From positions 1-64,000 of the forward strand of contig JAUICN010000007.1 of the NCBI GenBank assembly GCA_030427835.1: a DNA stretch of 64,000 bases, written 5' to 3'. The notes beneath the pieces are model-generated. The model made no database searches and was not told the DNA's origin. It saw only the letters and a list, made by a program, of their open reading frames with translations. Positions 2,663-53,683 of the stretch are shown here, piece after piece (the stretch's first letter is position 1; each line of letters starts with the position of its first letter). The translations under genes and the position numbers were made by a program. This DNA is from Polyangia bacterium (GTDB taxonomy: Bacteria; Myxococcota_A; Polyangia; Polyangiales; JAUICN01).

Positions 2663-2674
2663 GGAGTGTAGGCT

Positions 2675-3760
2675 CTAGTTACCGCAGTTTCCTGGCAGGT
2701 AAACCCAGTCGGTGCATTGACCGGTGGTGGCCGCGGCAAAGTCCCCGGCCCGGCATTCCTTTAGGGTGCTGCACCAGCCGCAGTAACCCCTGGCGGAGGC
2801 GCAGGTCGCACAGGTGTCCCCGCCGCCGACGGTGGCGGTGTCCTCACAGGGGTCGTCAAAGCCGTCGCAGCTTCCGCCAAAGGTTGCGGGCTGTACCCAA
2901 CGGTCGCCTGTGGCATCGGTGCACTTGGTTTCGTCCAGGGGGCCTGAACCGTCTGTTTTTGAGGCCAGGCACTTGGAGTCCCCCTGGATGTTCTCACACC
3001 AACCGCAGTGGTGGCTTGCGCCTATGCAGCCGCCGCAGTCCAGTTGTTCGCAGGCTTCACGGGGTGGCCGGCATCGGTTGGCCACGGTGTCGCAATAGCC
3101 CTCGTAACAAAGGCTCCCTGAGCAGCAGTTCTTTCCGGATATGCCGCAGTTGGGGGTGGCGGTTTCGGCAAGTGGTCGGCATTTTTTGTTTACACAATAG
3201 AGAGAATTGCCTTCGTGGGTGTCAGGGCATGCCAGGTGGCCCACGCAGCAGGGTTCGTTGTACCCGCCGCACAGCGCACATTTGTTGTCACGGCATTCGA
3301 GTCCTGCCTGGCATTGGTCTTCCACGCAGCAGTCCTGTTCTTCGTCTCCACAATCGGTGCCCACCGCGGTGCATTGCTTTACTGCGCCTCCGATGGATTG
3401 GCAGGTGGCACCTTCACAGCATTCGTTGGAGGAGCGACACTGGGTGCCTTCTGCAATGCAGCAGGCGCCTGAGTTGCAGGTGGCCACACCACAGCATTCG
3501 TTGGTACCTTCGCAGGAGGCCCCGCCGGGTAGGCTGCAGCAGTAGCGCCGGTCGAACTGATCTGGGCCGCTGCAAAGGGCGCCGTTGCCGCACTCTTGGT
3601 CATTGTCGCAGCAGGTGCGCCCGGCGGTGTCGCAGGTGCCGCCGCCGCCGTCCTGTTGGCTACCGACCTTGAGTTTCCCCTTGCACGCGGGTGCAAGGAA
3701 CACACCGATGCACAGGAGCACCGTGCACGTGGCGCGTGCCTCCAAGCCAAAGCACCGCAT
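2675..3760 (-). CDS. Cysteine-rich lipoprotein with PSI/plexin-like repeats (paralog 2)
   Basis: 361 residues, the shortest of the three. Lipobox LAPAC near residue 26, then a charged, glycine-rich linker and disulfide-knot-like repeats (CDTAGRTCCDNDQECG, SSNECCEGATC and similar). Two PSI-like units follow: LDCGGCIGASHHCGWCE and a second one ending in YCGWCSTLKEC. It lacks the extra CGWC units of its neighbours, so the family varies by repeat number. The gene sits 9 bases after paralog 3 and 12 bases before paralog 1, which points to one transcript. Surface or periplasmic location follows from the lipobox; function is unknown. Confidence 0.8.
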   Translation of the reverse strand: MRCFGLEARATCTVLLCIGVFLAPACKGKLKVGSQQDGGGGTCDTAGRTCCDNDQECGNGALCSGPDQFDRRYCCSLPGGASCEGTNECCGVATCNSGACCIAEGTQCRSSNECCEGATCQSIGGAVKQCTAVGTDCGDEEQDCCVEDQCQAGLECRDNKCALCGGYNEPCCVGHLACPDTHEGNSLYCVNKKCRPLAETATPNCGISGKNCCSGSLCYEGYCDTVANRCRPPREACEQLDCGGCIGASHHCGWCENIQGDSKCLASKTDGSGPLDETKCTDATGDRWVQPATFGGSCDGFDDPCEDTATVGGGDTCATCASARGYCGWCSTLKECRAGDFAAATTGQCTDWVYLPGNCGN

Positions 3761-3769
3761 GGTTTGGGC

Positions 3770-5227: not shown

Positions 5228-5337
5228 GACGTTCCTTAATAGGCCAGTGTAATCGATCAACTTAAGTAAAACGAACTATGGAACCAGGAAAAAGCAGGTG
5301 ATGGTGTGATCCCAGGTAGGGTTGTGTGTTCCAAACC

Positions 5338-24427: not shown

Positions 24428-27004
24428 ATGAGGCTGGATCGACTGACTACGAAGACCCGTGAGGGTTTGATGGGGGCACAGCAGGAGGCGACGGAGCGGG
24501 GGAACCCCGAACTCTTGCCGGAACACCTGATGTTTGCGTTTTTGCAACAGGCGGACGGGGTGGTACCCGCGTTGGTGAACAAGGCGGGTGCGAATCCAGG
24601 GAAGGTCACCGAAGCGCTGCGGGGTGTGTTGGAAAAATCTCCTCGGGTAGATGGGGGCTCTGAGCCTGGGCTTTCGAGCCGTCTGCGCGGTGTGCTTAGC
24701 CAAGCATGGAAGGAAACGGAAGCGTTGAAGGACGAGTACACGTCTGCGGAGCACGTGTTGCTAGCGGCCTTTGCCATGAAAGATGGTTTGGCGGACTTGC
24801 TGCGTGCCAACGGGGTAAGCCGGGAAGCGTTGCTTGGAGCCTTGCAGGAGGTGCGGGGAACCCAGCGCGTGACGGACCCGGACCCTGAGGGGCGTTTTCA
24901 GGCGCTTGAGAAGTACACCCACGACCTTACCGGTGCGGCACGTGACGGAAAGCTCGACCCAGTGGTGGGACGTGATGAGGAAATCCGCCGTGTGATGCAG
25001 GTGCTCTCGCGCCGTACCAAGAACAACCCGGTGCTGATTGGGGAGCCGGGCGTGGGCAAGACCGCCATTGTGGAGGGCATTGCCAGCCGGATTGTGGCGG
25101 GGGATGTGCCCGAGGGGTTGCGTGACAAGCGTGTGCTCGCGTTGGACCTGGGAAGCTTGCTTGCGGGGAGCAAGTTCCGCGGGGAGTTTGAGGAACGGCT
25201 GAAGGCTGTGCTGAAGGAGGTGGAATCGGCGGAAGGCGGGATTGTGCTGTTCATCGATGAGCTTCACACCCTGGTGGGTGCGGGTGCCTCGGAGGGCGCC
25301 ATGGACGCTTCCAACATGTTGAAGCCCGCCCTGGCGCGGGGTGAGCTGCGGTGCATCGGTGCGACTACCTTGGATGAATACCGAAAGCACATTGAAAAGG
25401 ACGCGGCGTTGGCCCGGAGGTTCCAATCGGTGCTGGCAGGGGAGCCTTCCGTGGAAGATACGGTTGGGATTCTGCGTGGGCTGAAGGAACGCTACGAGGT
25501 TCACCACGGGATTCGCATTCAGGACGCGGCGTTGGTGGCGGCTGCGACCTTGAGTGACCGTTACGTCACGGACCGCTTTTTGCCGGACAAGGCGATCGAC
25601 CTTGTGGACGAGGCGGCAAGCCGACTGCGGATGGAAATCGATTCCATGCCGGCCGAGATCGACCGGGTGGAACGGCGGATCATGCAGTTGGAAATCGAGC
25701 GCCAGGCCCTGAAGCGAGAATCTGACGAGGCGAGTCAAAAGCGCATGGGTGAGTTGGAAGTGGAACTGGCGGAACTCAATGAACAGAAGAGCGCCATGCG
25801 TGGCAAATGGTTGCGGGAGAAGGAGCTGATTACCCAGATCCGGGAGAAGAAGGCCCTGGTGGAGCAGTTGCGTGGGGATTTGGAGCGGGCGCAGCGCACG
25901 GGGGATTTGGATGTGGCTGCGAGGATCCAGTACGGGGATATTCCAGCGGCGGAAAAGAGCGTGACGACGGCCCAGGATGGGTTGCAGGCGGCCCAGGCAG
26001 AGGGTGGCTTTCTTAACGAGGAGGTGACTGAGGAAGACATTGCGGCTGTGGTGGCCAAGGCCACGGGCATTCCTGTGAGCAAGATGCTGCAGGGGGAGAA
26101 GGACAAGCTGCTGGAGATGGAAGCGCGACTGGGTGCCCGTGTGGTGGGGCAGATGGAAGCGGTGGTTGCGGTGAGCAACGCCGTACGTCGATCCCGGGCG
26201 GGGTTGGGTGAACCTTCGCGGCCAGTGGGCTCGTTTCTATTTTTGGGGCCCACGGGTGTTGGTAAAACGGAGCTGGCCCGGGCGCTGGCGGAGTTTCTGT
26301 TTGATGACGAGCGGGCCATGATCCGGTTGGACATGAGCGAGTACATGGAGAAGCACTCCGTGTCTCGGCTGATCGGCGCCCCCCCAGGTTACGTGGGCTA
26401 CGAGGAGGGCGGCCAGTTGACGGAGCCGGTGCGGCGACGGCCCTACAGCGTGATTTTGTTTGATGAGGTGGAGAAGGCACACCCGGATGTGTGGAACACC
26501 CTGCTTCAGGTGTTGGATGACGGCCGGTTGACGGACGGCCAGGGGCGAACGGTGGATTTTCGCAACACGGTGATCATTTTGACATCCAACGTGGGCTCAC
26601 AGCATGTGATGACGCTTGACGATGATGAGGCGATTCGCAAGGCGGTGATGGGTGAGGTGCGAAGTTCTTTTCGGCCCGAGTTCATCAACCGGTTGGACGA
26701 GACGGTGGTGTTTCACCGGTTGGAGCAGGTGCAGATTCGCAAAATCGTGGAGGTCCAGCTCGCGCGGTTTGCAGCGCGCCTAAAGGACCGGGGCATGGAG
26801 TTGGACATCAGCGACGGTGCAAAGGACTTGCTGGGTGAGATCGGTTTTGACCCCACCTACGGTGCACGGCCGTTAAAGCGCGCGATTCAAAAGCACCTGG
26901 AGAACCCCCTGGCCCAGGAGATCTTGGCGGGCCGCTACGCGTCAGGCGACACGGTGGTTGTGGACGTGGGCGCCAACCGCGAGCTTGGTTTTGGTAAGCG
27001 TTAG
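24428..27004 (+). CDS. clpB: ClpB protein disaggregase
   Basis: 858 residues, normal length. Starts [14 protein letters not shown] at ATG 24428, the canonical ClpB N-terminus. Order: Clp N-domain (1-150), first AAA+ domain with Walker A GEPGVGKT at 205-212 and [12 protein letters not shown], the coiled-coil middle domain (about 400-530, highly charged), second AAA+ domain with Walker A GPTGVGKT at 607-614 and [13 protein letters not shown] pore loop, and the small C-terminal domain. It rescues aggregated proteins with DnaK. No ClpP-binding tripeptide loop is apparent. The last 68 bases are repeated 1 kb downstream, so the native 3' flank has been displaced by an insert. Confidence 0.97.
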
Positions 27005-27006
27005 GG
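26939..27006. repeat. Left copy of a 68-bp direct repeat (clpB 3' end)
   Basis: The last 66 bases of clpB plus two bases after the stop recur at 28013-28080 with two mismatches. The two copies bracket a 1,006-bp segment that carries a small mobile element and a two-gene nucleotidyltransferase module, as expected if a cassette entered at the 3' end of clpB and rebuilt or duplicated it. Confidence 0.9.
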
Positions 27007-27165
27007 CGCACCTCATTCGATCTGATCGAGTTTTGACCTTGATCTTTGGCCCTGGAGCTGTGTCGTACGTGCTCGCCGTAGCTTTGGCTACGCCTGCGTG
27101 CGCCTCCTCGCTCCCGAACCAAATCTACTGCGGTCAAACTCTCAATCATCTCAAATGAGGCGCGC
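27006..27165. mobile_element. 160-bp repeat-like element with imperfect 33-bp inverted ends
   Basis: The left arm (27006-27038, beginning GCGCACCTCATTCGA) and the reverse complement of the right arm (27132-27165) agree at about 27 of 33 positions and both end in TTTGACC. In the middle is a perfect hairpin, CGTAG-CTTTGG-CTACG at 27077-27092. No coding capacity. This looks like a MITE or large REP-type element; no second copy is present in the window, so mobility is inferred from structure. Confidence 0.65.
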
Positions 27166-27234
27166 TGTAGACGGAAAGTTCACACTTGGGATCTATGATG
27201 TTGTGATTCAGTTCCATGCAGCTAGACTCTACCC

Positions 27235-27441
27235 GTGGAAGACGTGAAACCTGAGGCACGTGAGTATCAGCTCAAGCGCCTGCGGGAAATGAGCTCTGAG
27301 GAAAAGCTACGTGCTGCGACCCGATTGTACTGGTCCGCGCGCCGCCTCAAGGAAGCGTTCTTCCGCGACCAACACCCTGACTGGACCGACGAAGAAGTCT
27401 ACCAAGCGGCGAAAGAAGCCTTCATGTATGCCCGAGACTGA
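27235..27441 (+). CDS. Small helical protein, partner of the nucleotidyltransferase
   Basis: 68 residues from a GTG at 27235. Entirely charged and helical: REYQLKRLREMSSEEKLRAA, then RLYWSARRLKEAFFRDQHP and EEVYQAAKEAFMYARD. Its stop lies 14 bases inside the next gene, the tight overlap typical of toxin-antitoxin pairs. I recognise the general type found upstream of small nucleotidyltransferases, but not a named family. The likely role is antitoxin or regulator of the following gene. It lies in the 1-kb segment between the two copies of the clpB end. Confidence 0.65.
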   Translation: MEDVKPEAREYQLKRLREMSSEEKLRAATRLYWSARRLKEAFFRDQHPDWTDEEVYQAAKEAFMYARD

Positions 27442-28009
27442 GAAGCCGCTTTTCGCTGTTTTCATCGAGAAGTTCAACCTGCTCGGCCACACCTACATGG
27501 TGACGGGGAGCGTTGCTGGCACGTTGTACGGTGAACCCCGTGTTACTCACGACGTGGATATTGTGCTCCAGCTCCCCGCGGCGCGGCCCGTGCTCGACCG
27601 GTTTGTGGAGACCTTTCCCCTTGAGGATTTTTATTGCCCTCCCTGGGAAGTCCTTCTTGAAGAAGCCCTTCGTTCGCACCATGGCCATTTCAATCTTATC
27701 CACCACGATACTGGATTCCGTGCAGACGTGTACCTTGCGAACAGCGACCTTCTGCATACTTGGGCACTCAAGCGCCGTAGACCACTGCAGGTCGATGGAA
27801 CAACCCTTCACGTGGCCCCCCCTGAATATGTCATTTTACGAAAACTTCAGTTCTACAAGGAAGGTCAGTCTGAAAAGCACCTTCGCGACATCCGACACAT
27901 GTTGAGCGTATCCGGAGAAAATATTCAGACAGAAGTCATTCGTGACTGGGCTACGAAGTTGGGTGTGGACGCGGAGTGGCAATCTTTCGCAGTGAGCAAT
28001 AGGACCTAG
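27428..28009 (+). CDS. Nucleotidyltransferase-fold protein of a two-gene module
   Basis: 193 residues from ATG 27428, overlapping the small upstream gene by 14 bases. The N-terminus has the nucleotidyltransferase signature: MVTGSVAGTLYGEPR followed by HDVDIVLQL, i.e. GS and a DxD metal-binding pair; a third acidic residue is likely in FRADVYLAN. The second half is helical (EYVILRKLQFYKEGQSEKHL, IRHML). This resembles the AbiEii/MNT-like toxins that transfer nucleotides to RNA or protein targets, so a toxin role is plausible. It ends 3 bases before the duplicated clpB end. Confidence 0.75.
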   Translation: MPETEKPLFAVFIEKFNLLGHTYMVTGSVAGTLYGEPRVTHDVDIVLQLPAARPVLDRFVETFPLEDFYCPPWEVLLEEALRSHHGHFNLIHHDTGFRADVYLANSDLLHTWALKRRRPLQVDGTTLHVAPPEYVILRKLQFYKEGQSEKHLRDIRHMLSVSGENIQTEVIRDWATKLGVDAEWQSFAVSNRT

Positions 28010-28012
28010 ACT

Positions 28013-28080
28013 GCGCCAGGCGACACGGTGGTTGTGGACGTGGGCGCCAACCGCGAACTTGGTTTTGGTAAGCGTTAGGG
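28013..28080. repeat. Right copy of the 68-bp clpB 3'-end repeat
   Basis: Matches 26939-27006 except at two positions. It has no start signal and no frame connected to clpB, so it is a fossil or insertion-boundary copy of the clpB terminus. The sequence after it (28081 on) is probably the original downstream flank of clpB. Confidence 0.9.
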
Positions 28081-28099: not shown

Positions 28100-29146
28100 C
28101 TACGGGGTGATGAGAATGAGTTTGCGGAGCTGTGACAGCACCCGGAGTGCGCCGCCAAGGGCGTACCAGGGGGCGTTGATGAAGGCTTCCTTGAGTACGT
28201 CCACAGCAGTGGGTGTGCTCTGAAAGCCAGCAGCCTCTGCCCGGACCACTACCTGGGAGACTTCCTTGTCTAGTGTTTTGACAAAATTGGAAATGATATT
28301 GAACATGAGTTGATCTGCGTGGGCCTCGTTTCTTGGGGCGACGCAGCGCTCCAGCAGGGTGCTTTGGAATTCTGGGGAAGTCATCTCGGGTGACACTGCG
28401 TGGTGGAGTGACCAACAGAAGATCGAGGATCTTGTTCTGTTCGCTCCGGTGCTGGGGAAGAGCAGGTAGTACACCCAGTGGAGGTTGTAGAGTTGGGTGT
28501 TTCTCAAAATAACCCTGAGGCCAAAGTGGCGGGCATCGCCACGCACACAACCGTGGATGTAGTGGCATTCCTGGGATACTCGAATGCCGAGTGGATCTCC
28601 GTTGTGGGCGTCTTGTAGCGAATAGTGGTCGTTTTTGGTCTGTGTGTAGCGTTGTTCACCGCAGTGTTTGAACGATGGGTTGCCATCGGTGCCACGCCAT
28701 AGATCGAGTTGGTTGTCGGTTGGGTTTTTGATCCCTGGTTGCCGGAGCTTTGAGCACTGTGGATTTGCCTTCAGCAGTGGTGACAGAGCGTGATCGGTGG
28801 ATGGGGGTTGGTCTAGCTCTTCTGCGTTTAGGGTGAGTACGAAGTCGAGGGCGTTTGTGCCTTTCACTTCGATTTGTTGGAGGGTGGCCTCAAGGGTGCC
28901 TAGGGAGTCTACGGTTTGCAGCCATTGGGCGAGGGGTAGTTCGGTGTGTTCGGTGAACGCCTGATTGTACTGTGCGACTAGGTTGTCGGTTTCCTCTGTT
29001 GTGGTTTTGATGACCGTTGAAGTGCTCGGTGCATCGGGTGCGCAGGCGACAAGCGTGAGTAGGCAGACGGTTGCGCAAGCAAGGTTGATCGATGTTAGTG
29101 TTCTGCAATTCGCCAAGCGGTCACGACCGGGTACTTCGATGGTCAT
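28100..29146 (-). CDS. Lipoprotein of the five-gene cluster (family 1, copy A)
   Basis: 348 residues from ATG 29146 with lipobox LVAC near residue 35. Family 1 blocks, shared with the genes at 29158 and 32053: LVAQYNQAFTEHTELPLAQWL near the N-terminus; NPSFKHC; CHYIHGCVRG followed by HFGL; LYNLHWVYYLL; SSIFCWSLHHAV; and a C-terminal NAPWYALGGALRVL that reads as a hydrophobic helix. Cysteines are conserved among the three, so disulfides are likely. No known domain recognised. Last gene of the minus-strand cluster, 11 bases after its neighbour; ends near the right clpB-end repeat. Confidence 0.75.
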   Translation of the reverse strand: MTIEVPGRDRLANCRTLTSINLACATVCLLTLVACAPDAPSTSTVIKTTTEETDNLVAQYNQAFTEHTELPLAQWLQTVDSLGTLEATLQQIEVKGTNALDFVLTLNAEELDQPPSTDHALSPLLKANPQCSKLRQPGIKNPTDNQLDLWRGTDGNPSFKHCGEQRYTQTKNDHYSLQDAHNGDPLGIRVSQECHYIHGCVRGDARHFGLRVILRNTQLYNLHWVYYLLFPSTGANRTRSSIFCWSLHHAVSPEMTSPEFQSTLLERCVAPRNEAHADQLMFNIISNFVKTLDKEVSQVVVRAEAAGFQSTPTAVDVLKEAFINAPWYALGGALRVLSQLRKLILITP

Positions 29147-29157
29147 GGTAGGGTGCC

Positions 29158-30174
29158 TCAGAAGGTGTACTGAAGTAGCTTGCCAAGCTTCCCTAGAATA
29201 CTGAGCGCGCCTCCCAGCGCATACCAAGGCGCATTGCGCGCTGCCTGTTCCAGTATCTGCACGCCAGTGGCGCCCACTTGGTAGCCGCCCTGCTCTAGAC
29301 GTTTGCCTACTTTATTGATTTCTCCTTGCTGAAAACTAAAGAGATTTGAGATTGCGTTTACAAGCCTTGTACTTGTCTGTTCGTCTGAATGGACGTCGAA
29401 ACACTTTTCGTTGCCAATGGATCCAAACATATGCGTCTTCATGTTCCCTGCGACGGTATGAGCAAGCGCTGTGCAGACTATTGAGTTTGAACGCACGTTG
29501 TTTCCTTGGCCGGTCGGTAGTAGGTAGTAGGCCCACTTGAGATGGTAAAGTTCGCGTTGATAGGGGTCAGTTAGGAGGAGGCCGAATCCATTGGAGTTTC
29601 CTCGAACACAGGCGTCCACGTAGGCGCAACCCGTCGTTGCGACCAAACTCAGTAGCTGTTGAGACCCGGTTTTTATTAGCGTGGCAGGGATGTTTGAACT
29701 GGATCTTGTTTGCATTGAGTTCCCTACACAATGGTTAAAACTTGGATGTGTTTCCGTGCCGCGCAGGGTATTGTACTCCTTGGCGCTAGGTCGCGATGCG
29801 CCCTGGCCGCGATCTCCGGGAGCGCGTTTGTGAGAACATCGAAGAATACCGAACTCGCTGGTTTTCGGGGTGCCGACTTCTGTTGTGGTGTTTTCGGTTT
29901 CGTTGAGCTCCTTTATGAACTCCCATGCGCTTGTTGTGCCAACGGTCACTTCACTTAGGGTTTCTGCGAGCCGTTCGAAGTCTGGGTTGGTACTCAACCA
30001 CTCGCCTAGGGGTAGGCCCGTGTGGTCTTCGAAGGCTTGGTCGTATTGGGTGATGAGGCTGGCGGTTGTTTCTTCGGTTGGGGTTTTGCTGCTGCCGAGT
30101 TCTTGGGTGGGAGCGCAGGCTGCAAGTGTGGCGGCACATAGGCATGCGGTTGGGTTGGATAGGTGCTTTTTCAT
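29158..30174 (-). CDS. Lipoprotein of the five-gene cluster (family 1, copy B)
   Basis: 338 residues from ATG 30174, preceded by GAGAAACGAC; the frame is open much further upstream but the ATG gives an exact lipoprotein signal (MKKHLSNPTACLCAATLAAC). Carries every family 1 block: LITQYDQAFEDHTGLPLGEWL is split across residues 40-60, then HPSFNHC, CAYVDACVRG with FGL, LYHLKWAYYLL, NSIVCTALAHTV and the C-terminal NAPWYALGGALSILGKL. Relative to copies A and E the middle segment differs most. Gap of 19 bases to the preceding gene. Function unknown; outer-membrane or surface lipoprotein by inference. Confidence 0.75.
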   Translation of the reverse strand: MKKHLSNPTACLCAATLAACAPTQELGSSKTPTEETTASLITQYDQAFEDHTGLPLGEWLSTNPDFERLAETLSEVTVGTTSAWEFIKELNETENTTTEVGTPKTSEFGILRCSHKRAPGDRGQGASRPSAKEYNTLRGTETHPSFNHCVGNSMQTRSSSNIPATLIKTGSQQLLSLVATTGCAYVDACVRGNSNGFGLLLTDPYQRELYHLKWAYYLLPTGQGNNVRSNSIVCTALAHTVAGNMKTHMFGSIGNEKCFDVHSDEQTSTRLVNAISNLFSFQQGEINKVGKRLEQGGYQVGATGVQILEQAARNAPWYALGGALSILGKLGKLLQYTF

Positions 30175-30193
30175 GTCGTTTCTCGTTTGAATA

Positions 30194-31051
30194 CTAGGGG
30201 CGAGTTTGGGTGGTGTCGTTGCGGGCGCCTTCGATGGCTTGCCGTACGGCTTCATCAATATCGATTCCCGTGTCCTCGCAGAAGCCGAAGTCCGTACAGG
30301 TTTCGCGTCGCCAGTCATTGGAAAAGGTTGGGTCTTCCCAAGCCTGGATGGCCTCTGCGGTGAGGGAGCCCATGAATCCGCAGACGAGGCCCACGAGCAC
30401 AAACACGAGGAGGCTTCCGAAGCCCGTGCCCGCCGTGATGAGGCCGGCTTTCATGGCAAGACCCATGCAGCCCATGGAAGCCGAGCCACCTAGTCCTGTG
30501 GCGAGACCCACTACGATTCCTTTTAGAAAATCGAGGCAGTCTTCGCATGTGATTCCGTTGCCTGTGAGGGGTTGGGCGGTGCCGTTGACGATTTCGAATC
30601 CCTGGATTTCGGGTCCAGGGTTTGGGTGGTCGTTGGTGTTTTCTGGGCCGTCTGCTGAGGAGTCCTCAGGGGTTTGCGTTGTGAGAACTGCAATGGTCTT
30701 TCCGTCTTGATCCTGGGCGAGGGACCAGAATCTGGTGTTTGCTTCGGTTTCGTTCGGGCAGGTTTCTTTGAGTACGAAGCCTTCCATTCCATCCTGGGCG
30801 TGGTGCTCGGATAGGCCGATTTCCGGGTCTTCGCAGAGTGGGTCTACGACGCCACGCACGGCGCCCACGGAACCCGCCAATGCGGTTTGTGTTCCGCCCC
30901 AGGTGAGGTTGTCCAGGCTCCAGGTGGCTTCAGGTTCCACACCATTTTTGTTGCCAGCGGTGGATTGCACCTGGTTGGCGGTGCAGGCGGTGAAGCCAAC
31001 GATGAGACTGAGACTGAGGGCAATGTTTTGCAGTACTTCTTTGTGGTGCAC
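30194..31051 (-). CDS. Lipoprotein with glycine-rich, halocin-C8-like cysteine module (copy 1)
   Basis: 285 residues from a GTG at 31051, chosen for the strong AGGAGA 8 bases upstream and the lipobox FTAC that follows. An N-terminal soluble part of about 155 residues (KETCPNETEANTRFWSLAQD and so on) precedes a module that begins CEDCLDFLKGIVVGLATGLG, continues with GSASMGCMG, a long hydrophobic FGSLLVFVLVGLVCGFMG, and ends with CTDFGFC. The spacing C-x2-C, GC, CG and a final Cx5C recalls the halocin C8 bacteriocin domain, where the mature peptide is also C-terminal. Similarity is by pattern only. Paralog at 31281. Confidence 0.65.
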   Translation of the reverse strand: MHHKEVLQNIALSLSLIVGFTACTANQVQSTAGNKNGVEPEATWSLDNLTWGGTQTALAGSVGAVRGVVDPLCEDPEIGLSEHHAQDGMEGFVLKETCPNETEANTRFWSLAQDQDGKTIAVLTTQTPEDSSADGPENTNDHPNPGPEIQGFEIVNGTAQPLTGNGITCEDCLDFLKGIVVGLATGLGGSASMGCMGLAMKAGLITAGTGFGSLLVFVLVGLVCGFMGSLTAEAIQAWEDPTFSNDWRRETCTDFGFCEDTGIDIDEAVRQAIEGARNDTTQTRP

Positions 31052-31230
31052 GACGACTCTCCTGGGTGGGAGGCGTCTAAAGCAATCCACGTACCGCCCG
31101 CTTTCTTCGGGCAATTTGTTGTAGAGCTCGCGTTACACTCACATTTAGTGTCTCATCTAGTGGCGACTTCAATAGCCGATCCTGTGCCAGTAGATTCTGT
31201 GGCTCACATTTGGGCCTGCCTTGCGCCAGC

Positions 31231-31265
31231 AGAAATAAATATTTTACCGGGCAGATAATTTTAGT
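31231..31265 (-). promoter_or_regulatory. Conserved motif in the leader of the 31051-28100 genes
   Basis: The 229-base gap 31052-31280 contains, on the plus strand, AAATATTTTACCG then GGCAGATAATTTTA. A closely similar block occurs at 33347-33384 upstream of the gene at 33114. Both lie 190-250 bases before a minus-strand start, which suggests a shared promoter or regulator site at two points of the cluster. Confidence 0.45.
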
Positions 31266-31280
31266 TTCTGCCGAGGTGAT

Positions 31281-32018
31281 CTAGGGCTGGATTGTGGGGG
31301 GGTCGTTGGGGAAGAGGTTTTTGGTCATTTCGTGGACGATGTCGCCTATGTTGGGGCCGCATAGGCCTGCGGTGGTGCATATGCCGTAGCGGATGCCCAG
31401 GGTCATGTCTTTGTCGAGGTAGGATTTGAGGGCTTCGGTAGGGATGCCGGCGAGGAAACCGCACGCAAGTCCCACCACCACAAAGGAAACGAGGGACCCG
31501 GGGCCGGTTTCGAGGGTGACTCCGGCTGCGGTGAGGGCGGCGGACATGCATCCGCCTGCGGCGAGTCCACCTGCAAACGAAATGACGCTGTCAAAAATGG
31601 CCTGCACGGTTCCAAGGCACCATTCACAGTAGTCGCCTGAGGTGTTTGCCTGTAATTCGAGTGCGCCTTGGCTCTGGATGATGGAGGCCACCATGGTTTG
31701 TTTGTGGCTATCCTCTGCAGCGGCCCAAATGCGTGTGGTGGTTTCGGAATCCAAAGGGCAGGTCTCTTGGATGAGTAGGATTCGATTGCCCTGTAGGTTC
31801 TCCTGGGCGAGCACCTGGAGCTCAGGTGTGTTGCAGAGACTTTCGCCCATTTGCTTGCGCTGTGTTTCTTCCGCCAGGTTCGTAAACTCTTGAGTGACGT
31901 TGTTGTGAATGCGGTGCCAGGGTTGATTGGATTTGGTGGAACCAGGTGCCGTGTTGGCGCTGCAGGCGGCGGCAAGGGTGACAAGGGCGAGGGCAAGTAA
32001 TGTGGATTTGTAGTTCAT
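31281..32018 (-). CDS. Lipoprotein with glycine-rich, halocin-C8-like cysteine module (copy 2)
   Basis: 245 residues, lipobox AAAC near residue 19. Same plan as the gene at 30194: a soluble N-terminal part containing LIQETCPLDSETTTRIWAAA (copy 1 has a matching ETCPNETEANTRFW), then CEWCLGTVQAIFDSVISFAG, GGLAAGGCMSAAL, SLVSFVVVGLACGFLAG and a C-terminal CTTAGLCGP. The AGLC close to the end is also how halocin C8 ends. The hydrophobic stretches are glycine-zipper-like and could enter membranes. It follows the gene at 32053 by 34 bases and is followed by a 229-base gap, so it may end the first transcript of the cluster. Confidence 0.65.
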   Translation of the reverse strand: MNYKSTLLALALVTLAAACSANTAPGSTKSNQPWHRIHNNVTQEFTNLAEETQRKQMGESLCNTPELQVLAQENLQGNRILLIQETCPLDSETTTRIWAAAEDSHKQTMVASIIQSQGALELQANTSGDYCEWCLGTVQAIFDSVISFAGGLAAGGCMSAALTAAGVTLETGPGSLVSFVVVGLACGFLAGIPTEALKSYLDKDMTLGIRYGICTTAGLCGPNIGDIVHEMTKNLFPNDPPTIQP

Positions 32019-32052
32019 GGCTTAACTCTTGGGTGTTGGAGAATGTTGAGAT

Positions 32053-33114
32053 TTAGGGGATCCCCAATACGAACTTTCCGAAGTACTTGAGCACTACCAG
32101 TGCGCCTCCCACGGCGTACCAGGGTGCGTTTGTTGCGGCAGCTTCAAGGATGTCGATTGCGGTTGCGTCGAGATCGAAACCCATGTCTTCGAGCCGTTGC
32201 CGCACTCGTTTGACTTCGGCTTGCTGCAGCAAACTCTGATCTGTGATGACTTGTGTGAGTGCAGCACGGGCCCCCTTATTGGTGGACACGCTCTTGCAGC
32301 GTTCACCTGTGGCACCGCGGAAGTCCTCGTTGCCGATGTCGTACCCCCCGTAGGAGTCACCCACGACGTGTTGCCAGGTCCAACATACGATGGGGTCGAC
32401 AGATACGTTTCCCCCCTTGCCGCGTTCGAGCAGGTAGTAGGACCAATGGAGGTTGTAGAGCACGATGTCGCCCACGGTTACCATGAGGCCGAAATGGGGC
32501 GCGAGACCGCGAATACAACCGTTCATGTAGTGGCACTCGTGTGAGATCCGTACGTCAATTCGCCGAAGGGTTTGGGTGTGCCCGAGCTTTCCCTTGAGCT
32601 TGACGCGGGTGTCTGATGTGACGCTTCTACCCGTGTCGCCGCAGAGGTTGAAGCTAGGGCTACGTAGGGAGCCGCGGGCGCGGACTTCCTCGTAGGTAGG
32701 CCACGGTATTCCCGGTGTACGTTCTCGACTACAGTTCAGAACGTTGTCTACGCGTTTGGCACCTGACACGGCGTGTGCGTCGTGTGATGGCGTGTGTTCC
32801 ACTTCTACGGGTTGTGAGCCTGCCACGAGCTGAAGGGCGAAATCGCTTGCTGAGGTTCCCTTGACGTAGATCGATTCAAGCATCGACTCGAGGTTGTCGA
32901 ACGGGTTGTCCTGCTGAAGCCAGTCTCCAAGGGTGAAGCCGGTGTGGTTTTTGAAGGCTTGGTCGTACTGTGTGATGAGGGCGTCAGTTCTTTCCGTGGA
33001 CTTGCTCGCCCCCGGGTTGTCCGGTGCACAGGCCCCCACCGTGCACATCGTCATTGCTAACACTGCCATCCCACAGGTTGGCCAGGCCCAGCGGCAACGG
33101 GGTGCGCGTGACAT
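32053..33114 (-). CDS. Lipoprotein of the five-gene cluster (family 1, copy E)
   Basis: 353 residues from ATG 33114 with GAGGACCACC just before it. Lipobox VGAC near residue 29. Family 1 blocks in order: LITQYDQAFKNHTGFTLGDW, SPSFNLC, CHYMNGCIRG with HFGL, LYNLHWSYYLL, DPIVCWTWQHVV and NAPWYAVGGALVVLKYFGK at the C-terminus. It is the first gene of the cluster; the 424-base region upstream, shared with rpsU, holds the promoter and the motif also seen at 31231. Closest to copy A in its cysteine pattern. Function unknown. Confidence 0.75.
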   Translation of the reverse strand: MSRAPRCRWAWPTCGMAVLAMTMCTVGACAPDNPGASKSTERTDALITQYDQAFKNHTGFTLGDWLQQDNPFDNLESMLESIYVKGTSASDFALQLVAGSQPVEVEHTPSHDAHAVSGAKRVDNVLNCSRERTPGIPWPTYEEVRARGSLRSPSFNLCGDTGRSVTSDTRVKLKGKLGHTQTLRRIDVRISHECHYMNGCIRGLAPHFGLMVTVGDIVLYNLHWSYYLLERGKGGNVSVDPIVCWTWQHVVGDSYGGYDIGNEDFRGATGERCKSVSTNKGARAALTQVITDQSLLQQAEVKRVRQRLEDMGFDLDATAIDILEAAATNAPWYAVGGALVVLKYFGKFVLGIP

Positions 33115-33538
33115 GGTGGTCCTCTAGGTTCTGTTCTTTACGAGTGGTTCTCTGTTTGTTTTTTGGTTCGTACCAAGACCGGTAGAAACTGAGCTTATTC
33201 AGCAACCTTTGTGCCACTGGCACTAAAGCCGGTTTGTCTACTGCTCCAGCCCGAACAGTCCCAGTCCATTGGGGTTGGGCTCTGGTCTGACGTGTGTTGT
33301 TCCCTGGGCGGTGTTGTGTTCTGAAAGGATTTCCACCCTGGAATGTGTAAAATATTTTTCTGCCGCGCAGATAATATTTTTTTTCACGCAATGAGATGTG
33401 TACGAGCGACGTGGTGTCGAGCGTGATCTCTGTTGAAGTTGCGTTTGGGGGGTGGGCGTGTCACTTTTGGCGGCCGTTTTGGTGGAGCCCTAATTTTGTG
33501 GCGCCGCTCCCTTCGCGATTCGTTTGGTGAAATAAGGT
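33115..33538. other. Divergent promoter region between the lipoprotein cluster and rpsU
   Basis: 424 bases without a gene. It must contain the promoter of the minus-strand cluster and of rpsU. An A/T-rich block at 33347-33384 (TAAAATATTTTTCTGCCG then CGCAGATAATATTTTT) resembles the block at 31231-31265. No RNA gene recognised. Confidence 0.5.
33347..33384 (-). promoter_or_regulatory. Conserved motif upstream of the lipoprotein cluster
   Basis: Shares with 31231-31265 the arrangement AAATATTTT, a short spacer, CCG(G/C)GCAGATAAT and a T run. It lies about 235 bases upstream of the 33114 start in the transcription direction. The match is strong for intergenic sequence, but its function is inferred. 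Confidence 0.45.
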
Positions 33539-46488: not shown

Positions 46489-47826
46489 CTATTGATAGGC
46501 TTCGTGCACGCACTGTGCGAGTAAGCTTTCTGTTTTCTGCCTGCACGATACTGCGTTGCCCCTTTTTTTCATGCAGATGTCGTACTCGTCAAAGTACTCA
46601 AACAGGCAGTCCTGGATGGTGAGGTGTTCTTGTGCCCATGCGGCTTCTCGTTCAGCCCATGGGAGTTCTAGGTAACGGGAGAAATCCTCCATGAGTTGCA
46701 GCGTGTATTGTTCGGCTTTCGGATCGAGCGGAGGTGGCTTCTTTTCCTTCGCTTTTTTCTTTGGCGGTTCAATTGGCTCTTGCTTTTTAGGGCGATTGTT
46801 TGTGAACTCCTCCACAGGATCTTTCCCTTCATTCCATTGGCGGAGTATGTACCCAACGACCGCGCCCAACTCGTGCTTGTAGCGTCGAAGGTAGGTCGCT
46901 CTTGTAAATGGCTTGGCGCAAAGGGCATTCACGGTGCTTTGTGGTGTGTAGAGTTCTCGTGTTCGTGTGACTTCACAGCGCTCCATGACGAGGTTGTTCA
47001 TGTCGGAGATCCCCCGACCTTCCACATGGTACAGATATGCCATCGTGTCGTAGAGATCGCGCTTCATTCCCTCGGAGGATTTCACCATGGCTTTGATCAG
47101 GTAGAGATCGAGCTCTCCGTTCTCGTTTGTTTTTGGTCTATTGGGGTAGATGTCAAAAAAGTTCCAAATCATGAGGGTGAGCAGGTATCTCCGTAGGGTT
47201 TTTTTGATGTCCGCACTGGTCTTCTCTTCCCAGGCCTGGATGTTTTGCGGATCCGAATACCAACGCAACGCATCCCTCTCTTGCATATTTGTTGGGTTGG
47301 CCGGAGGAGGAAGGTGATCTCTTAGTTGTTGAGCATTTTTGGATACACCGTTGGGTGTGGGAAGATCGTGTTTGAACTGACGATGAAAAAAAAGAATGCC
47401 GGAAACCTCGACCCAATCTTTGGTCACTTTGGCCTTAAACGCGGTAGGGCCCTGTGCTTCTTTGATGCCCAGGCAGGGGTCGCCCGTTTTAGGTTTTTCC
47501 TTGAAGTAGCCCACCCCGATCTGATCGGTTCTTTGGTATCGAAGAACGTAGCGGGTTTCTTTTTCGTTTTCGACGGCAAACGTCACCGGTATGGCGTAGG
47601 CATTCTTGTTTGCGCCACGGTAGATGCACGAGAGTTCAAACCGATTCGACGTTTCTAGTTGTACCGTGAGGTCGATGGGCTTGTGCTTGCGCCAGTCGTT
47701 CAAACTCTTGGAGGTGGGGTGTTCTCCTCCTAGGTTTGCTGTGCAGGATAGCTGCAATGCTGCGGCGGCCAGGATTGGGTATGGGTTTCGGGGGGTCACA
47801 GTGCTGGAGGCTTGAGCAAGTCCCAT
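46489..47826 (-). CDS. Lipoprotein with twin Cx10C end, one-module form
   Basis: 445 residues from ATG 47826; signal ending in LQLSC. One beta-type module opens the mature protein (LSCIYRGANKNAYAIPVTF ... YFKEKPKTGDPCLG), the same C...C pattern seen twice in each large relative upstream. A helical region follows, then a basic Pro/Lys linker (PPKKKAKEKKPPP) and the C-terminal pair CLFEYFDEYDIC (Cx10C) and CRQKTESLLAQC (Cx10C). It is the last and smallest gene of the minus-strand family run 55915-46489. Unknown function; probably outer-envelope. Confidence 0.75.
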   Translation of the reverse strand: MGLAQASSTVTPRNPYPILAAAALQLSCTANLGGEHPTSKSLNDWRKHKPIDLTVQLETSNRFELSCIYRGANKNAYAIPVTFAVENEKETRYVLRYQRTDQIGVGYFKEKPKTGDPCLGIKEAQGPTAFKAKVTKDWVEVSGILFFHRQFKHDLPTPNGVSKNAQQLRDHLPPPANPTNMQERDALRWYSDPQNIQAWEEKTSADIKKTLRRYLLTLMIWNFFDIYPNRPKTNENGELDLYLIKAMVKSSEGMKRDLYDTMAYLYHVEGRGISDMNNLVMERCEVTRTRELYTPQSTVNALCAKPFTRATYLRRYKHELGAVVGYILRQWNEGKDPVEEFTNNRPKKQEPIEPPKKKAKEKKPPPLDPKAEQYTLQLMEDFSRYLELPWAEREAAWAQEHLTIQDCLFEYFDEYDICMKKRGNAVSCRQKTESLLAQCVHEAYQ

Positions 47827-48086
47827 ACCAATGGTGCCCCGGGTGTCTGACGGACCATGGGCTGTACGGTTCTCAGCGGCGCTTGGGTCCCTACACCCCA
47901 TGTTTGACGCCCAAACTCCCTAGCTTTTGGCCGCCCTAGACAATGCCAGGCAACGCAACTCACTAGGTGTTTGTATCCGTGGGTAGCCCTGCCGGATAGC
48001 CTTGCCGGGTAGCCTCTACTGGCCACTCCAGTTTATGGCGTACCCCCCAGCCATTCGTTTTCGGCCCACTGACCGAAGCACGCGTC
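47827..48086. other. Intergenic region within the lipoprotein run
   Basis: 260 bases between two minus-strand family genes. The only structure noted is a small imperfect tandem repeat around 47981-48022 (GGGTAGCCCTGCCGG, ATAGCCTTGCCGG, GTAGCCTCTACTGG). A promoter for the 46489 gene may lie here. No RNA gene seen. Confidence 0.4.
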
Positions 48087-50219
48087 CTAGTGGCGTGTGG
48101 AATGTTGGGCACTGCTGAGGCATTCCGAAAAAATTTGAAGGCCTGCTTGTTTGCAGCGTAGATGGTTCACTGTGGTGTTTATGCATCTGTCGTAGGCGGT
48201 GTAGGCCTGACCTAAGCAATGCCGCACCGTTGGATGTGAGATGCTTTTGGAAATCTCTTCCTGGGTGTTGGAGTTCGATGCATCTAGCCAGGCGTCGCAT
48301 TGTTTGATCCAATCGCTGATATTTTCTACGGGTATCCTTTGCTGTGGTGGGCGGTCAGGTAGGGTACTACCCAGATTGTTGCGCGTCGTATCGCAGAGGT
48401 GCTTTGTGATGGAACCTAGAATCGTGTTGCCTTTCAATCCTGTGGGCAGACGATCAACGGGTTTGCAAAAGTTCTTCTCCTCCTCATGTGTGATCCACCC
48501 CTGCGCCCTTACCGCTTCACACAGGCCATACATGAGGTTTGTCACACTTCCACATGTTCCTGCCAGCTTTGCAAGGTTGTATCGAAAATGATCGTCCAGA
48601 TCGTAGCCTATCTCTTGGGAAATTTGCTGGAAGGGCTGTATGTGCCCGTCGCCGTCATGGGTACGTGTGTCGCCACGGAGTCTCGCAACATAAAGACCAA
48701 TGACCATGGTAATCAGTTCTCTTCGGGCGGCTCGTTCCATGGATTCCAATATGTTGCCCATGCGCTCCTTTCGATACGATTGCTCGTATTGAAGCCGCCT
48801 TTTTTCCTCTGCTCTTTCTCGAAATTCATCCGTCCATAGCGGCGTTACAAATTCCCAAAGTTCGTTCAGATTCGCATTCAATATGTTGCGGGAAAGTGTT
48901 CGGTCCGTCTCTAGGTTGGCCTGTCGCCGAGCCTCTTGCATTATTTGAGCCATTACCACATTTGTGAAGATGGTTTTATCCATGGGATAAGGGTGCTCCC
49001 TAAGGAAGCCCCGGCAATGATCCAAGGGTTGAGGTGGGCGGATATGGGCGCCGTATCCTTCGTAGTCTCCTGCACGAAAATGATTGAGATAGATTTCTGA
49101 TCCGCGGTTGATCGGTTTACCGGGGCCTGCCTCCCAGCTAAAACGATACACCGTTGTGGGAGGTGCATTTTTTTCGCTGTATGTCTTGTACGAACAAAGC
49201 ATATGCTCTGTTTCCACATTGAGCTCGATACTTTTGATCAAGGGTCGGTACTCAGGTGTTCTGTACACCACGTCGTCCATGCAGTACTGAATAACAGACT
49301 CTTCGATGTCGGAACGTCGCTGGGGCCCCTCGCAAAAGGATTCGAGATCTTCTTGGGTGATAAAGCTTGCAGCCTTTGCGGCTTTGCATGTGTGGCGAAT
49401 TTGGAACGCAATCTTGTTGCAGGTTTCCTTGTCTTTTTTGGGGTAGCTATCGACCACTTCTTCAATGGTGAATGGGCTGATGCTGTTGATCGTGGAAACG
49501 AGTTCCCTTCTGCTTTTTTCGCTTTTTACGCGTACGAGAAGCCTTTGTTGTACGTAGAGATAAGCAAACCGTGCGTATGCGGCACGGGTCAATGCGGTTT
49601 GCAAATCATCCTGTAGCGGTGTGATCAAACTTTGTGCAAGCCGCAGTGACGCTGCCACTTCTTGAGGTATGGCATCGGCCAGTTTGCTTCCGGTGTTCTC
49701 TAGGATTTTGTATCGAATGAATCGATCGGGAGCGGTGCCGGGATTCAGGGACTGTTCTAGGCTTCTTTGCAACCAGTTGTTGAGACGAGAGTGCAGTCTT
49801 CCTTGTTGATCTGGGTCATAGCCTTTGCACGGATACCTCGGTGTAGGCTTTTCTTGGAACAGACCGCCGCCGTAGGTATCTTCTGTGATTTTGTGTTTGG
49901 ATATCCAGGTGTGAAAACGGCTGTATCGTCCTCGAACGACCGCGGTAAAGCCCAATGGTAGAAGTGAAGATGATCGATCCTTCTTCTGTTTGTTCCTCAA
50001 GATAGTACAAGTTGTGAACTCTACGGGGCCGATCTCTACTTCTTTTATTCGTAGTGACTCTAGTTCAGGAAACTCTCTGAACTTCACGGACGGTTGGGCG
50101 GGTTCAAATGTGCAACCGGACAACGCGAGCAAAAGTACATGAAGTAGGTACGTTGTGACGGCGCCCCATGGTTTCTCTAGTCTGAACGATGGTTTTTTTA
50201 ACGGGCTGAATCTATTCAT
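48087..50219 (-). CDS. Large two-module lipoprotein with Cx10C helices (paralog 1)
   Basis: About 710 residues from ATG 50219 (MNRFSPLKKP); lipobox ALSGC. Two repeats of the same plan. Module 1: beta part from TTCTILRN to LFQEKPTPRYPCKG, then helices ending CNKIAFQIRHTC ... C. Module 2: beta part from MLCSYKTY through YRFSWEAGPG to IRPPQPLDHCRGF, then helices ending CGSVTNLMYGLC and GWITHEEEKNFC. The chain closes with CLGQAYTAYDRC and CKQAGLQIFSEC. Its start overlaps the stop of the broken relative upstream in ATGA. No known family recognised. Confidence 0.78.
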   Translation of the reverse strand: MNRFSPLKKPSFRLEKPWGAVTTYLLHVLLLALSGCTFEPAQPSVKFREFPELESLRIKEVEIGPVEFTTCTILRNKQKKDRSSSLLPLGFTAVVRGRYSRFHTWISKHKITEDTYGGGLFQEKPTPRYPCKGYDPDQQGRLHSRLNNWLQRSLEQSLNPGTAPDRFIRYKILENTGSKLADAIPQEVAASLRLAQSLITPLQDDLQTALTRAAYARFAYLYVQQRLLVRVKSEKSRRELVSTINSISPFTIEEVVDSYPKKDKETCNKIAFQIRHTCKAAKAASFITQEDLESFCEGPQRRSDIEESVIQYCMDDVVYRTPEYRPLIKSIELNVETEHMLCSYKTYSEKNAPPTTVYRFSWEAGPGKPINRGSEIYLNHFRAGDYEGYGAHIRPPQPLDHCRGFLREHPYPMDKTIFTNVVMAQIMQEARRQANLETDRTLSRNILNANLNELWEFVTPLWTDEFRERAEEKRRLQYEQSYRKERMGNILESMERAARRELITMVIGLYVARLRGDTRTHDGDGHIQPFQQISQEIGYDLDDHFRYNLAKLAGTCGSVTNLMYGLCEAVRAQGWITHEEEKNFCKPVDRLPTGLKGNTILGSITKHLCDTTRNNLGSTLPDRPPQQRIPVENISDWIKQCDAWLDASNSNTQEEISKSISHPTVRHCLGQAYTAYDRCINTTVNHLRCKQAGLQIFSECLSSAQHSTRH

Positions 50220-51495
50220 TGGTCTTCGTTGATGGTTGTGAGGCAATCGTGGAGGGTTCGGGTGGCGACGTCTTTGCAGTGGGGGTGGGAGGATGTGCCC
50301 TCCATGCAGGCGTCGTATCGTATGAAAGCGTTTTTTAGGCAGCTTTGAACTTCATCGTTTGCAATGGCGTGAAACGCGCGGTTCCGGGCTTCTGTTTGGG
50401 AGGAGCCCATCCAGTGCTCGAACTGTTCCACCAGTTCCCGTGCGTTCATTGTTGAATAGCGGTCGTCCATGTAGCTTTGGGTACCCAATCGGGAGTTGGC
50501 GAGAATCTCAGACTGGGTCTCAGGGCTTCTCCATAGGGGCCCGACCACAGTCCATAGTTTGTTGAGGGCGAAATTCGCCTGGCTTGAAGCAAATGGGTGC
50601 TGGGTGGGCAACCCGGTTAGTTCCTTTGCGGGCCAGGTTACCTTTCGCATGATGTGGCCACCCATGGTCATGGGGCGTTGGCCTTGCTCGATCGGCCTGA
50701 ACTCACCTAGGCAGTTTGTACCGTGGGACGGAGGATCGAGGTGAAACCCCATTCCGTGAGTCAAGTTGTTTCCGTGATAGGTCAGGAACACGCGGCCGTT
50801 CTGAACCGCAGGTGTTTCGCCGGAGGCGGCCCAACGGAACCGGTAGATTGTCATGTGCGGCCAGTTTTCGGCCAGGTAGTTCGCGGTGGAACAGCGGGTG
50901 GAGTGTTGTTGTATTTCAAACTGCACCCGGCGGATGAGGGGTGCGTATTGGGGTTTCCGGTTGAGGATTCGTTCTCGGCAGTAGGCACGCACAGCCTGCT
51001 CAATATCGGCTTTGCCTGTTTCTGTTTTCGTGCAGCAGGTCGCGTAGGTCTGTTCTGTTACAAAGCCGGTCTTTTTTGCAATTTCACAACCCTCCCGTGC
51101 CGCAATGGCGACACGATTGCATTCGTGCCTGTCTTTGCCGTTTAGGCTTATGAAGAGTTCCTGTACCGTGATTGGGCTTTGGAGGTTTGCGGTCTCCACG
51201 AAACCAATCTGTTTGTTTTCCGAAACAATGCCGACTCGAATTCGCTGACGGAGATAGAGTTGTGCCAATCGAGATTTCGCGGATCTCAGGAGTGCCATTT
51301 CAAGATTCTCTTGCAGCCCTTCGGTTTCGTGCCTGCCCCAGTGGTGGGCGTGGGTACGGAGCTCGATTTGTGCGTGAAAGAAGGTGCTTCAAATGTGCAA
51401 GAGGATACGAGGGTACCCAGGCACAGCACGGTCAGGCGGTTTGTTTTTCTCCTGTGGTTTGTCGAGTGTCGGCTGGGTAGGTACTTCTGGGTCAT
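50216..51495 (-). pseudogene. Frameshifted, domain-deleted member of the two-module lipoprotein family
   Basis: From ATG 51495 a lipoprotein signal is read (lipobox VSSC, then TFEAPSF, as in paralog 1), but this frame stops at 51286 after KGCKRILKWHS. The continuation of the family sequence (EGLQENLEMALLRSAKSRLA) lies in another frame and runs to 50216: CNRVAIAAREGC helix, second beta part with YRFRWAASGE ... TNCLGEF, and the C-terminal CLKNAFIRYDAC and CKDVATRTLHDC. Relative to paralogs of about 710-740 residues, the first beta part and much of the second helical part are missing. So it combines a large deletion with a frameshift. Re-initiation at an internal start (51298) is possible, but without a signal peptide. 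Confidence 0.8.
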
Positions 51496-51504
51496 GTAAG
51501 TGCT

Positions 51505-53634
51505 CTAGTTTAGGCAGTCATAGAGGGTGCGTTCGGCCAGGCGGGCGCAGTACGGCTGATTGGAAATATCATCTGAAGACATGCAGGTTCTGTAGGCGCC
51601 GAAGTACTCTCGAAGGCATGCTTCCGCCGACGGATCCCTTAGCTTCCCCAAGGCGTCATTCTGTTGCTGTTCTGAGCTTCCGAGCCATGCGGAGTACTCT
51701 GCGATCAAGTCTGTTCCACGTATTTCCGTGGTGCTGTCGCTTCGCTGCTCTCGGGCTTCGGCGGGGTGTGGGATGGCCACTTCAATGTACCTGTCGCAAA
51801 TGTGTTTCAGGACGGAGTAGACGTGGGTTTTTCCTGGAACTCCGATGATGGGTTGTTCTGACTGGGTGCACCTTGCGTAGTGGGTTTGCTCAGAAATCCA
51901 TCCGTAGGTTTCGGCGCGTTTGCAGGTCTTGTAGGAGTCTTTCGCGATTGTGCTGCAGTGCTTGGAGATTTCCTTGTAGCCGTATTTGATGTGGTCGAAG
52001 AGGGAGTATTCGATCGCGTTTGCTGCGTCCATAAACGCGTCAAGGTGGTGGGTGTGGTGCAGGTGCTCAACCACGTCACCCCCTGTGTTGTTCAGGTAGA
52101 GTGCGATGATGAGTGTGAGCGCTTCGCGTCGTGCTTCGTATTCTAGCGCCTTTTCTATGGGATCCAGGATTTCCGCTCTACGTTCCTTTGAGCCGAGTCG
52201 CGCCCGTTTCCAATGTTCTTCTTCCGTAAGGGGTGGGTTCCATATGGGCATCACGAGGCCCCAAATGGGCTCCATGGTCGCGTTCAGTGTCGTGAGTACG
52301 AACCGTTGTGGCTCCGGCTGGGACGCGAGGCGACGCATTCCTTGCATCAGTTGGTTCAGGGTGTGGCCAGACATGATCTGTCGACGCTGGGTCGCGGGCA
52401 CCTTGGAGAATCTTCCCGTGCAGTTCGTACCGTACGCAGGGGTTTCCGTATGGAAACCGCGACCCAGTGTTTCCTGGTCGTTGTGCGCGCTTAGAAATAC
52501 ATCGCTGTTGTAGGTGCGCCCACCGCTTCCATGGAACTCCCAAGCCAGACGAAACACTGACATTTGTGGCCAGTTCGCTTCGTCAAAGTTTCTCAACGCG
52601 CAGGGTACGCGCCGGGCATGGGGGCGTATGGTGAGGTTAGAAACGAGCGGATCGTACGCGGTGACATTGGCAACGATTTCTTTTTTGCAGTAGTTCTCTA
52701 CGGCCCACTCCAGTTCGGTTTGGTTGTTTTGGTGGGCCCTGACGCAATACCGCGTGTGTTGTTCTGCGTTGATCCAATGATTGGCGTAGGCCCGTTCGCA
52801 CCCCGCAAGCACTCGGCTTGCAACGGCGGCGCAGTTATGTTGATGGGCCGACGATGTGTACGCCGCAAGTTGCTCGGTGATGGTGTAGGGCGATAGTACG
52901 TCTGCCTTTCGAGCGGCCGTCATCGGTGTGTGTTCCTCTGCGCTCCTCAGTTCCACATACCATTCCGAGTAGCGTGCAATGCCTGCGTGGACGAGGCTAT
53001 CTGTGGCTGCATCCTGAAACGCCTGGGTTTTCTGGCTGGGCCATTGGGGTTCGTCGCCACCGAGTTGTAGTTGCGGTACGGCGTCTGCAAGTTTGTGTAG
53101 GGCAACCCCTACCGGGTTCCACATGCGATGGCTCCCGTTTTCTGCCGTTGGGGCTGTGGCCTGCCGTAGACGTTGCTGGGTCCAGCTTCCGAGTACCTGA
53201 AATAGTCGGTCATCGTTGCTGTTTGGGTCCCAATTGCCGCGGCACCTGAAAGGGGCTTTGGGTTCCTTCTGAAAGATGTTTCCACGGTAACCTTTACCGG
53301 CGCTGTGTGCGTAGGCACTCGGATACTTGGAAACCCAGACTTGATGCCTTTGGGAAGTGCCTTGCACCACGGTAGTGAAAGCGAATGGAAACACAGTGGC
53401 TATCCTGTGAATGATTCCCTTTCCTTTGTCGTCGAGTCCCTGGCCCATGGTGCATTGCACAGGTTTGAAGGGCCCTACCTGAATATCTTCCACCCGTAGG
53501 GGCCAACCGCCCGTGATCGATTTTGTTGCCGGGGCGGAGCTTGCTGCGCAACTGGCTACCAGGAACGCCACCCACAGTACGGCTGGGTTTGTGTAAAATG
53601 GCGCTGAAACCTTGGATTTTCTAGGCTGGCCCAT
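51505..53634 (-). CDS. Large two-module lipoprotein with Cx10C helices (paralog 3)
   Basis: 709 residues; lipobox VASC near residue 29. Same layout as paralog 1: first beta part VQCTMGQGLDDKG ... FQKEPKAPFRCRG; helix pair CAAVASRVLAGC with NHWINAEQHTRYC; second beta part VPCALRNFDEANW, VFRLAWEFHG, FHTETPAYGTNCTGRF; helix pair CSTIAKDSYKTC with YGWISEQTHYARC; and the terminal hairpin CLREYFGAYRTC, CARLAERTLYDC. Cysteine spacing is kept almost exactly although the rest is diverged. It lies 49 bases after paralog 4 and 9 bases before the broken copy. Function unknown. Confidence 0.78.
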   Translation of the reverse strand: MGQPRKSKVSAPFYTNPAVLWVAFLVASCAASSAPATKSITGGWPLRVEDIQVGPFKPVQCTMGQGLDDKGKGIIHRIATVFPFAFTTVVQGTSQRHQVWVSKYPSAYAHSAGKGYRGNIFQKEPKAPFRCRGNWDPNSNDDRLFQVLGSWTQQRLRQATAPTAENGSHRMWNPVGVALHKLADAVPQLQLGGDEPQWPSQKTQAFQDAATDSLVHAGIARYSEWYVELRSAEEHTPMTAARKADVLSPYTITEQLAAYTSSAHQHNCAAVASRVLAGCERAYANHWINAEQHTRYCVRAHQNNQTELEWAVENYCKKEIVANVTAYDPLVSNLTIRPHARRVPCALRNFDEANWPQMSVFRLAWEFHGSGGRTYNSDVFLSAHNDQETLGRGFHTETPAYGTNCTGRFSKVPATQRRQIMSGHTLNQLMQGMRRLASQPEPQRFVLTTLNATMEPIWGLVMPIWNPPLTEEEHWKRARLGSKERRAEILDPIEKALEYEARREALTLIIALYLNNTGGDVVEHLHHTHHLDAFMDAANAIEYSLFDHIKYGYKEISKHCSTIAKDSYKTCKRAETYGWISEQTHYARCTQSEQPIIGVPGKTHVYSVLKHICDRYIEVAIPHPAEAREQRSDSTTEIRGTDLIAEYSAWLGSSEQQQNDALGKLRDPSAEACLREYFGAYRTCMSSDDISNQPYCARLAERTLYDCLN

Positions 53635-53683
53635 GGAGCTTGAGCATTCTCAGCAAGAACTGTGCTCAGGGGTTGGACCGTGT

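Follow-up and report, generated by a model that had tools for sequence, protein, structure and literature searches.

Among the described systems closest to the locus reported here are two from the field of bacterial antagonism. The SitA lipoprotein toxins of myxobacteria carry a lipobox and a variable toxin C-terminus, are accompanied by an immunity gene and depend on TraAB for delivery (PMC5562445, PMC8546572). The Cdz two-protein glycine-zipper bacteriocin of Caulobacter consists of ~85-aa proteins with dedicated type I export and a small membrane immunity protein (PMC5380434). We examined a five-gene lipoprotein cluster of a Polyangia bacterium that resembles the SitA/SitB cassettes in placing lipoproteins beside an unrelated secreted protein, in its short-spaced genes and in its myxobacterial setting (PMC5562445, PMC8546572). 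It also resembles Cdz in pairing two kinds of protein, in glycine-rich sequence and, presumably, in surface association. The cluster lies in the window, the whole 64,000-nucleotide stretch analysed, which forms part of a 180-kb contig (JAUICN010000007.1).

The five genes run on the minus strand from 33114 to 28100 in the order E-D-C-B-A. Gene E (32053..33114) encodes a 353-aa lipoprotein of family 1 (F1), as do gene B (29158..30174, 338 aa) and gene A (28100..29146, 348 aa). Gene D (31281..32018, 245 aa) and gene C (30194..31051, 285 aa) encode lipoproteins of family 2 (F2), the former with a C-terminal Gly/Ala-rich hydrophobic module framed by six cysteines and the latter read from a GTG start with AGGAGAG ahead of it as the ribosome-binding site. 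By sequence pattern, all five proteins have a type II signal peptide, in which a hydrophobic signal leads to a lipobox with Cys at +1 (VGAC in E, AAAC in D, FTAC in C, LAAC in B and LVAC in A). The gaps are 34 nt between E and D, 229 nt between D and C, 19 nt between C and B, and 11 nt between B and A. Thus the order, strand, starts, lipoboxes and short spacings (save one 229-base gap) given in a first-pass annotation of this DNA agree with the open reading frames. The same annotation described the two families as alternating; they are indeed interspersed in one cluster, but not in strict alternation, the order being 1-2-2-1-1.

The five lipoprotein genes are real. F1 members share 36-40% pairwise identity and the F2 pair 32%, and in codon alignments identity peaks at codon position 2 and is lowest at position 3 (52/64/36% for A/E), a pattern indicative of selected protein genes under protein-level constraint rather than chance open reading frames. 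The four F1 landmarks proposed from first inspection, QYxQAFxxHTxxxLxxW, CxYxxxCxRG, YxLxWxYYLL and NAPWYAxGGAL, occur in all three members. Besides the lipid cysteine, F1 has six cysteines and F2 has eight, every one of them invariant within its family. Since these are even numbers of fully conserved cysteines in exported proteins, they point to disulfide bonds in both families. The last six cysteines of F2 follow C-x2-C-x22-C-x28-C-x27-C-x5-C, a spacing that both copies keep exactly despite their 32% identity. They enclose a Gly/Ala-rich hydrophobic stretch, and it is within this stretch that the hydrophobicity of mature F2 is highest (KD19 2.2-2.4). In F1 the strongest mature hydrophobic stretch is the C-terminus in E and A (KD19 1.1-1.6), and the corresponding stretch of gene B scores 0.89.

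AlphaFold models computed from alignments of 2-3 sequences were poor, with a mean pLDDT of 52 for F1 and 46 for F2. The F1 model has helices, a beta-rich middle and a pair of helices at the C-terminus; that of F2 combines a beta portion with a C-terminal module that is helical. Structure comparison of these models against the PDB gave no meaningful neighbour, the models being too poor for fold matching, and the domain picture drawn below is therefore provisional. A saposin-like reading of the F2 cysteine frame was also considered, and Pfam gave no match for it.

F1 and F2 are previously undescribed lipoprotein families, new to the libraries searched: comparison with Pfam, NCBIfam, PHROGs and PDB sequences gave no credible match to either. 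Distant kinship between the two was ruled out by hhalign, which detected no relation, so the initial claim of two unrelated novel families is supported. Within their own genome, the three F1 and two F2 copies are confined to this locus. Neither family was recovered from ~140 other members of this order or from ~380 genomes representing the phylum, two overlapping sets, nor did a species-level genome collection yield either of them in two scans by sequence pattern. Weak distant matches outside this genome (E 0.001-0.01 per genome) are short, several with stops, and were discounted as chance. Since the relatives searched included no other genome of the same taxonomic family, F1 and F2 may be older than they look.

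We weighed whether the cluster serves contact-dependent antagonism, either as SitA-like lipoprotein toxins or as a Cdz-like surface bacteriocin in which the glycine-rich hairpin of F2 would be the membrane-attacking part. Two unrelated lipidated types in short-spaced genes, the glycine-rich hydrophobic module of F2, the putative amphipathic C-terminal helix of F1 and the known occurrence of SitA lipoprotein toxins in myxobacteria (PMC5562445) would all suit such a role. Yet F1 and F2 matched no SitA or toxin family model of NCBIfam at E<=10 and none of Pfam credibly, and no nuclease C-terminus was found. Moreover, the C-termini of both families are conserved between paralogues, not polymorphic as in SitA, and SitB has a type I signal where F2 has a lipobox. 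The gaps leave no room for a downstream immunity gene, those inside the units being 11-34 nt long and the 229-nt gap being occupied by the shared element described below. Inspection of the open reading frames between 27 and 34 kb revealed no type I secretion or immunity genes of the Cdz kind. The genome encodes four MYXO-CTERM proteins above the family cut-off, consistent with a myxobacterium-like organism, and among these proteins, the only ones inspected, none was recognisable by eye as TraA. Membership among the SitA/OME toxins is rejected, the lipobox being the one SitA feature found among those tested. The suggestion of a contact-dependent system in the first-pass annotation thus gained no positive evidence, and we regard antagonism of this kind as improbable.

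The opening C-x2-C and closing C-x5-C of the F2 module also prompted a comparison with halocin C8, under which F2 would be an antimicrobial precursor, made up of an N-terminal immunity part and a C-terminal Cys-rich peptide, and F1 an accessory. The overall layout is alike: halocin C8-like proteins (TIGR04449) are secreted, 250-300 aa long, and end in a Gly-rich hydrophobic Cys module opening C-x2-C. However, the module closes with C-x5-C in F2 but with C-x6-C or C-x7-C in the halocin-like proteins examined, F2 has six module cysteines in another spacing where those proteins have ten, and F2 carries a lipobox whereas they are secreted in a released form. The TIGR04449 model matched neither the F1 and F2 proteins nor this genome, and hhalign gave F2 against halocin C8-like proteins a probability of 0.6%; a halocin C8 query served as a search probe only. 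Profile and cysteine pattern rule out the relation, and a precursor role for F2 is very improbable.

A feature common to both parts of the cluster lies upstream of genes E and C, where a 35-nt repeat coincides with two copies of a 40-bp element. One copy (33346..33387, minus strand; core ATTATCTGCGCGG at 33363-33375) sits ~230 nt upstream of gene E, and the other (31230..31271, minus strand; core ATTATCTGCCCGG at 31247-31259) lies within the 229-base gap that precedes gene C. The local alignment score of the two upstream regions was equalled by 1 of 1000 shuffled pairs, and a PWM scan of the 180-kb contig returned these two copies only. Genome-wide, the core ATTATCTGCSCGG occurs in 32 exact copies and in 52 with at most one mismatch, against 2 for a reversed control pattern, while each of 139 relatives holds 0-2 exact copies. 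The 30 copies that we read align roughly to TTCTGCAAATTATCTGCGCGG(C/T)(A/G)GAA...TTTCTGCA with repeated TTCTGC half-sites; most are intergenic, and some are paired 36 or 42 bp apart. The element often stands 100-250 nt ahead of gene starts, and by hand count, at 19 of 27 separate sites a gene of the same strand begins no more than ~260 nt downstream. Judged by eye, the downstream genes are mixed, including a protease subunit, recombinases, a glycosyltransferase and lipoproteins, and many housekeeping genes are also preceded by the element. A scan for sigma-70 promoters found nothing. This lineage-specific element may be the operator of some regulator, one class of promoter or a family of small repeats.

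The copy in the 229-base gap suggests that C-B-A is a second transcription unit, and the cluster probably comprises two such units, E-D and C-B-A, with this promoter- or operator-like element at the head of both. Because both units have the same element upstream, joint expression of F1 and F2 is plausible, and the element is the best evidence that the two families are used together, though it is not private to them. An operator dedicated to the cluster was ruled out, since the element heads many unrelated genes; with so many housekeeping genes among these, it is no specific mark of an F1-F2 system. The two copies might also share ancestry by duplication rather than function. For the earlier proposal that the families are partners in one system, the element thus supplies plausible joint expression; the "repeated co-occurrence" on which the proposal leaned comes down to one locus of one genome. 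The element nonetheless offers a concrete handle, as its binding protein and regulon could show when lineage-specific envelope genes are used.

We further compared all 130 genes called on the contig against one another. Besides F1 and F2, seven groups of adjacent divergent paralogues, mostly orphan lipoproteins, were found in the window (designated by position: 1328/2675/3770; 11778/13059; 35143/37152; 48087/50216/51505/53684; 55775/59761; 58312/61804; 41676/43052). Predicted lipoprotein genes number 19 of 48 in the window versus 15 of 82 elsewhere on the contig, by a scan that misses some genes, including B and 33835. The neighbouring tandem lipoproteins, such as 35143/37152, 48087-55915 and 58312/61804, are like F1 and F2 in being adjacent divergent paralogues of ~20-40% identity, mostly lipoboxed, and among those scanned no Pfam family appeared except PAE and PSI. 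They differ in having no detectable sequence relation to either family and no shared upstream element. The orphan family 35143/37152 was likewise not found in 139 relatives. Between 55775 and 63084 two secreted families alternate on the same strand, each present twice, one pectinacetylesterase-like (55775/59761, with PF03283 in 59761) and the other an orphan lipoprotein (58312/61804).

Tandem duplication of orphan lipoproteins is thus the norm in the window, so that interspersed paralogues are to be expected even in the absence of partnership, and against this background a five-gene interspersed cluster is weak evidence that F1 and F2 work together. The cluster could be one further product of such duplication, with F1 and F2 mere neighbours in independent envelope roles. 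This account, which also draws on the local excess of lipoprotein-like genes and on the restriction of both families to one locus of one genome, is a serious contender, although we think it somewhat doubtful. It sits less easily with the short spacings within each unit, with a rare upstream element common to both units, and with the persistence of both families at 2-3 copies, all within this one locus of the genome.

The reading that we prefer, with about even confidence, is that F1 and F2 are two lineage-specific, disulfide-rich, lipid-anchored envelope families shaped by local duplication and arranged in two units (E-D and C-B-A) under a shared element. Both families would have arisen by local duplication, and the two units would be expressed from that one type of upstream element. 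All five proteins would be lipidated and sent to the outer membrane, as their +2 residues are A, S or T and none is Asp. F1 would comprise a helical N-terminal part, a beta-rich centre with three possible disulfides and a conserved hydrophobic or amphipathic C-terminal helix carrying NAPWYAxGGAL; its main part would be exposed or periplasmic, with the helix docking on the membrane. The Gly/Ala-rich hydrophobic hairpin of F2, within its six-Cys frame, would be embedded in the membrane or rest on it, possibly as a platform for F1, if the two make contact. Both would act for the producing cell itself, in its envelope or at its surface, a role that probably also falls to many of the neighbouring orphan lipoproteins. 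In kind, we judge F1 and F2 to be ordinary envelope lipoproteins, lineage-specific and propagated through local duplication, and the 64-kb stretch to be a setting where orphan lipoproteins multiply in this way, to which the cluster adds two families without known relatives.

A shared F1-F2 device is possible. In its fullest form, which we consider unlikely, the two families would be the components of an outer-membrane device restricted to this lineage: F1 would present or insert the glycine-rich, disulfide-framed hydrophobic hairpin of F2, either in the envelope of the producer or into a touched neighbour, and a lineage-specific regulator would read the 40-bp element. If F1 and F2 do form one device, such a membrane hairpin, framed by cysteines and borne on a lipoprotein, would be of a new kind.

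Several further features of the window were observed. Three tandem Cys-rich lipoproteins occupy 1328-5260, and the one scanned (3770-5260) has a PSI (plexin repeat) domain. At 46489-55915 lie four divergent orphan paralogues of ~360-740 aa (one shorter) and a fifth gene related to them only weakly; a lipobox and conserved cysteines are present in most. On the side of gene A, the last 68 bp of clpB (26939-27006) are repeated with 97% identity at 28013-28080, 1,074 bp downstream. The two copies flank a gene at 27311-28009 that resembles a nucleotidyltransferase and has no Pfam match, an arrangement suggestive of cassette insertion at the 3' end of clpB; gene A ends ~20 bp away. Additionally, a ~166-bp interspersed repeat (27006-27171) lies just downstream of the clpB stop and is 89-98% identical, one copy being partial, to those at the four other places read (contig C7 near 159.8 and 161.8 kb, L029 and L038).
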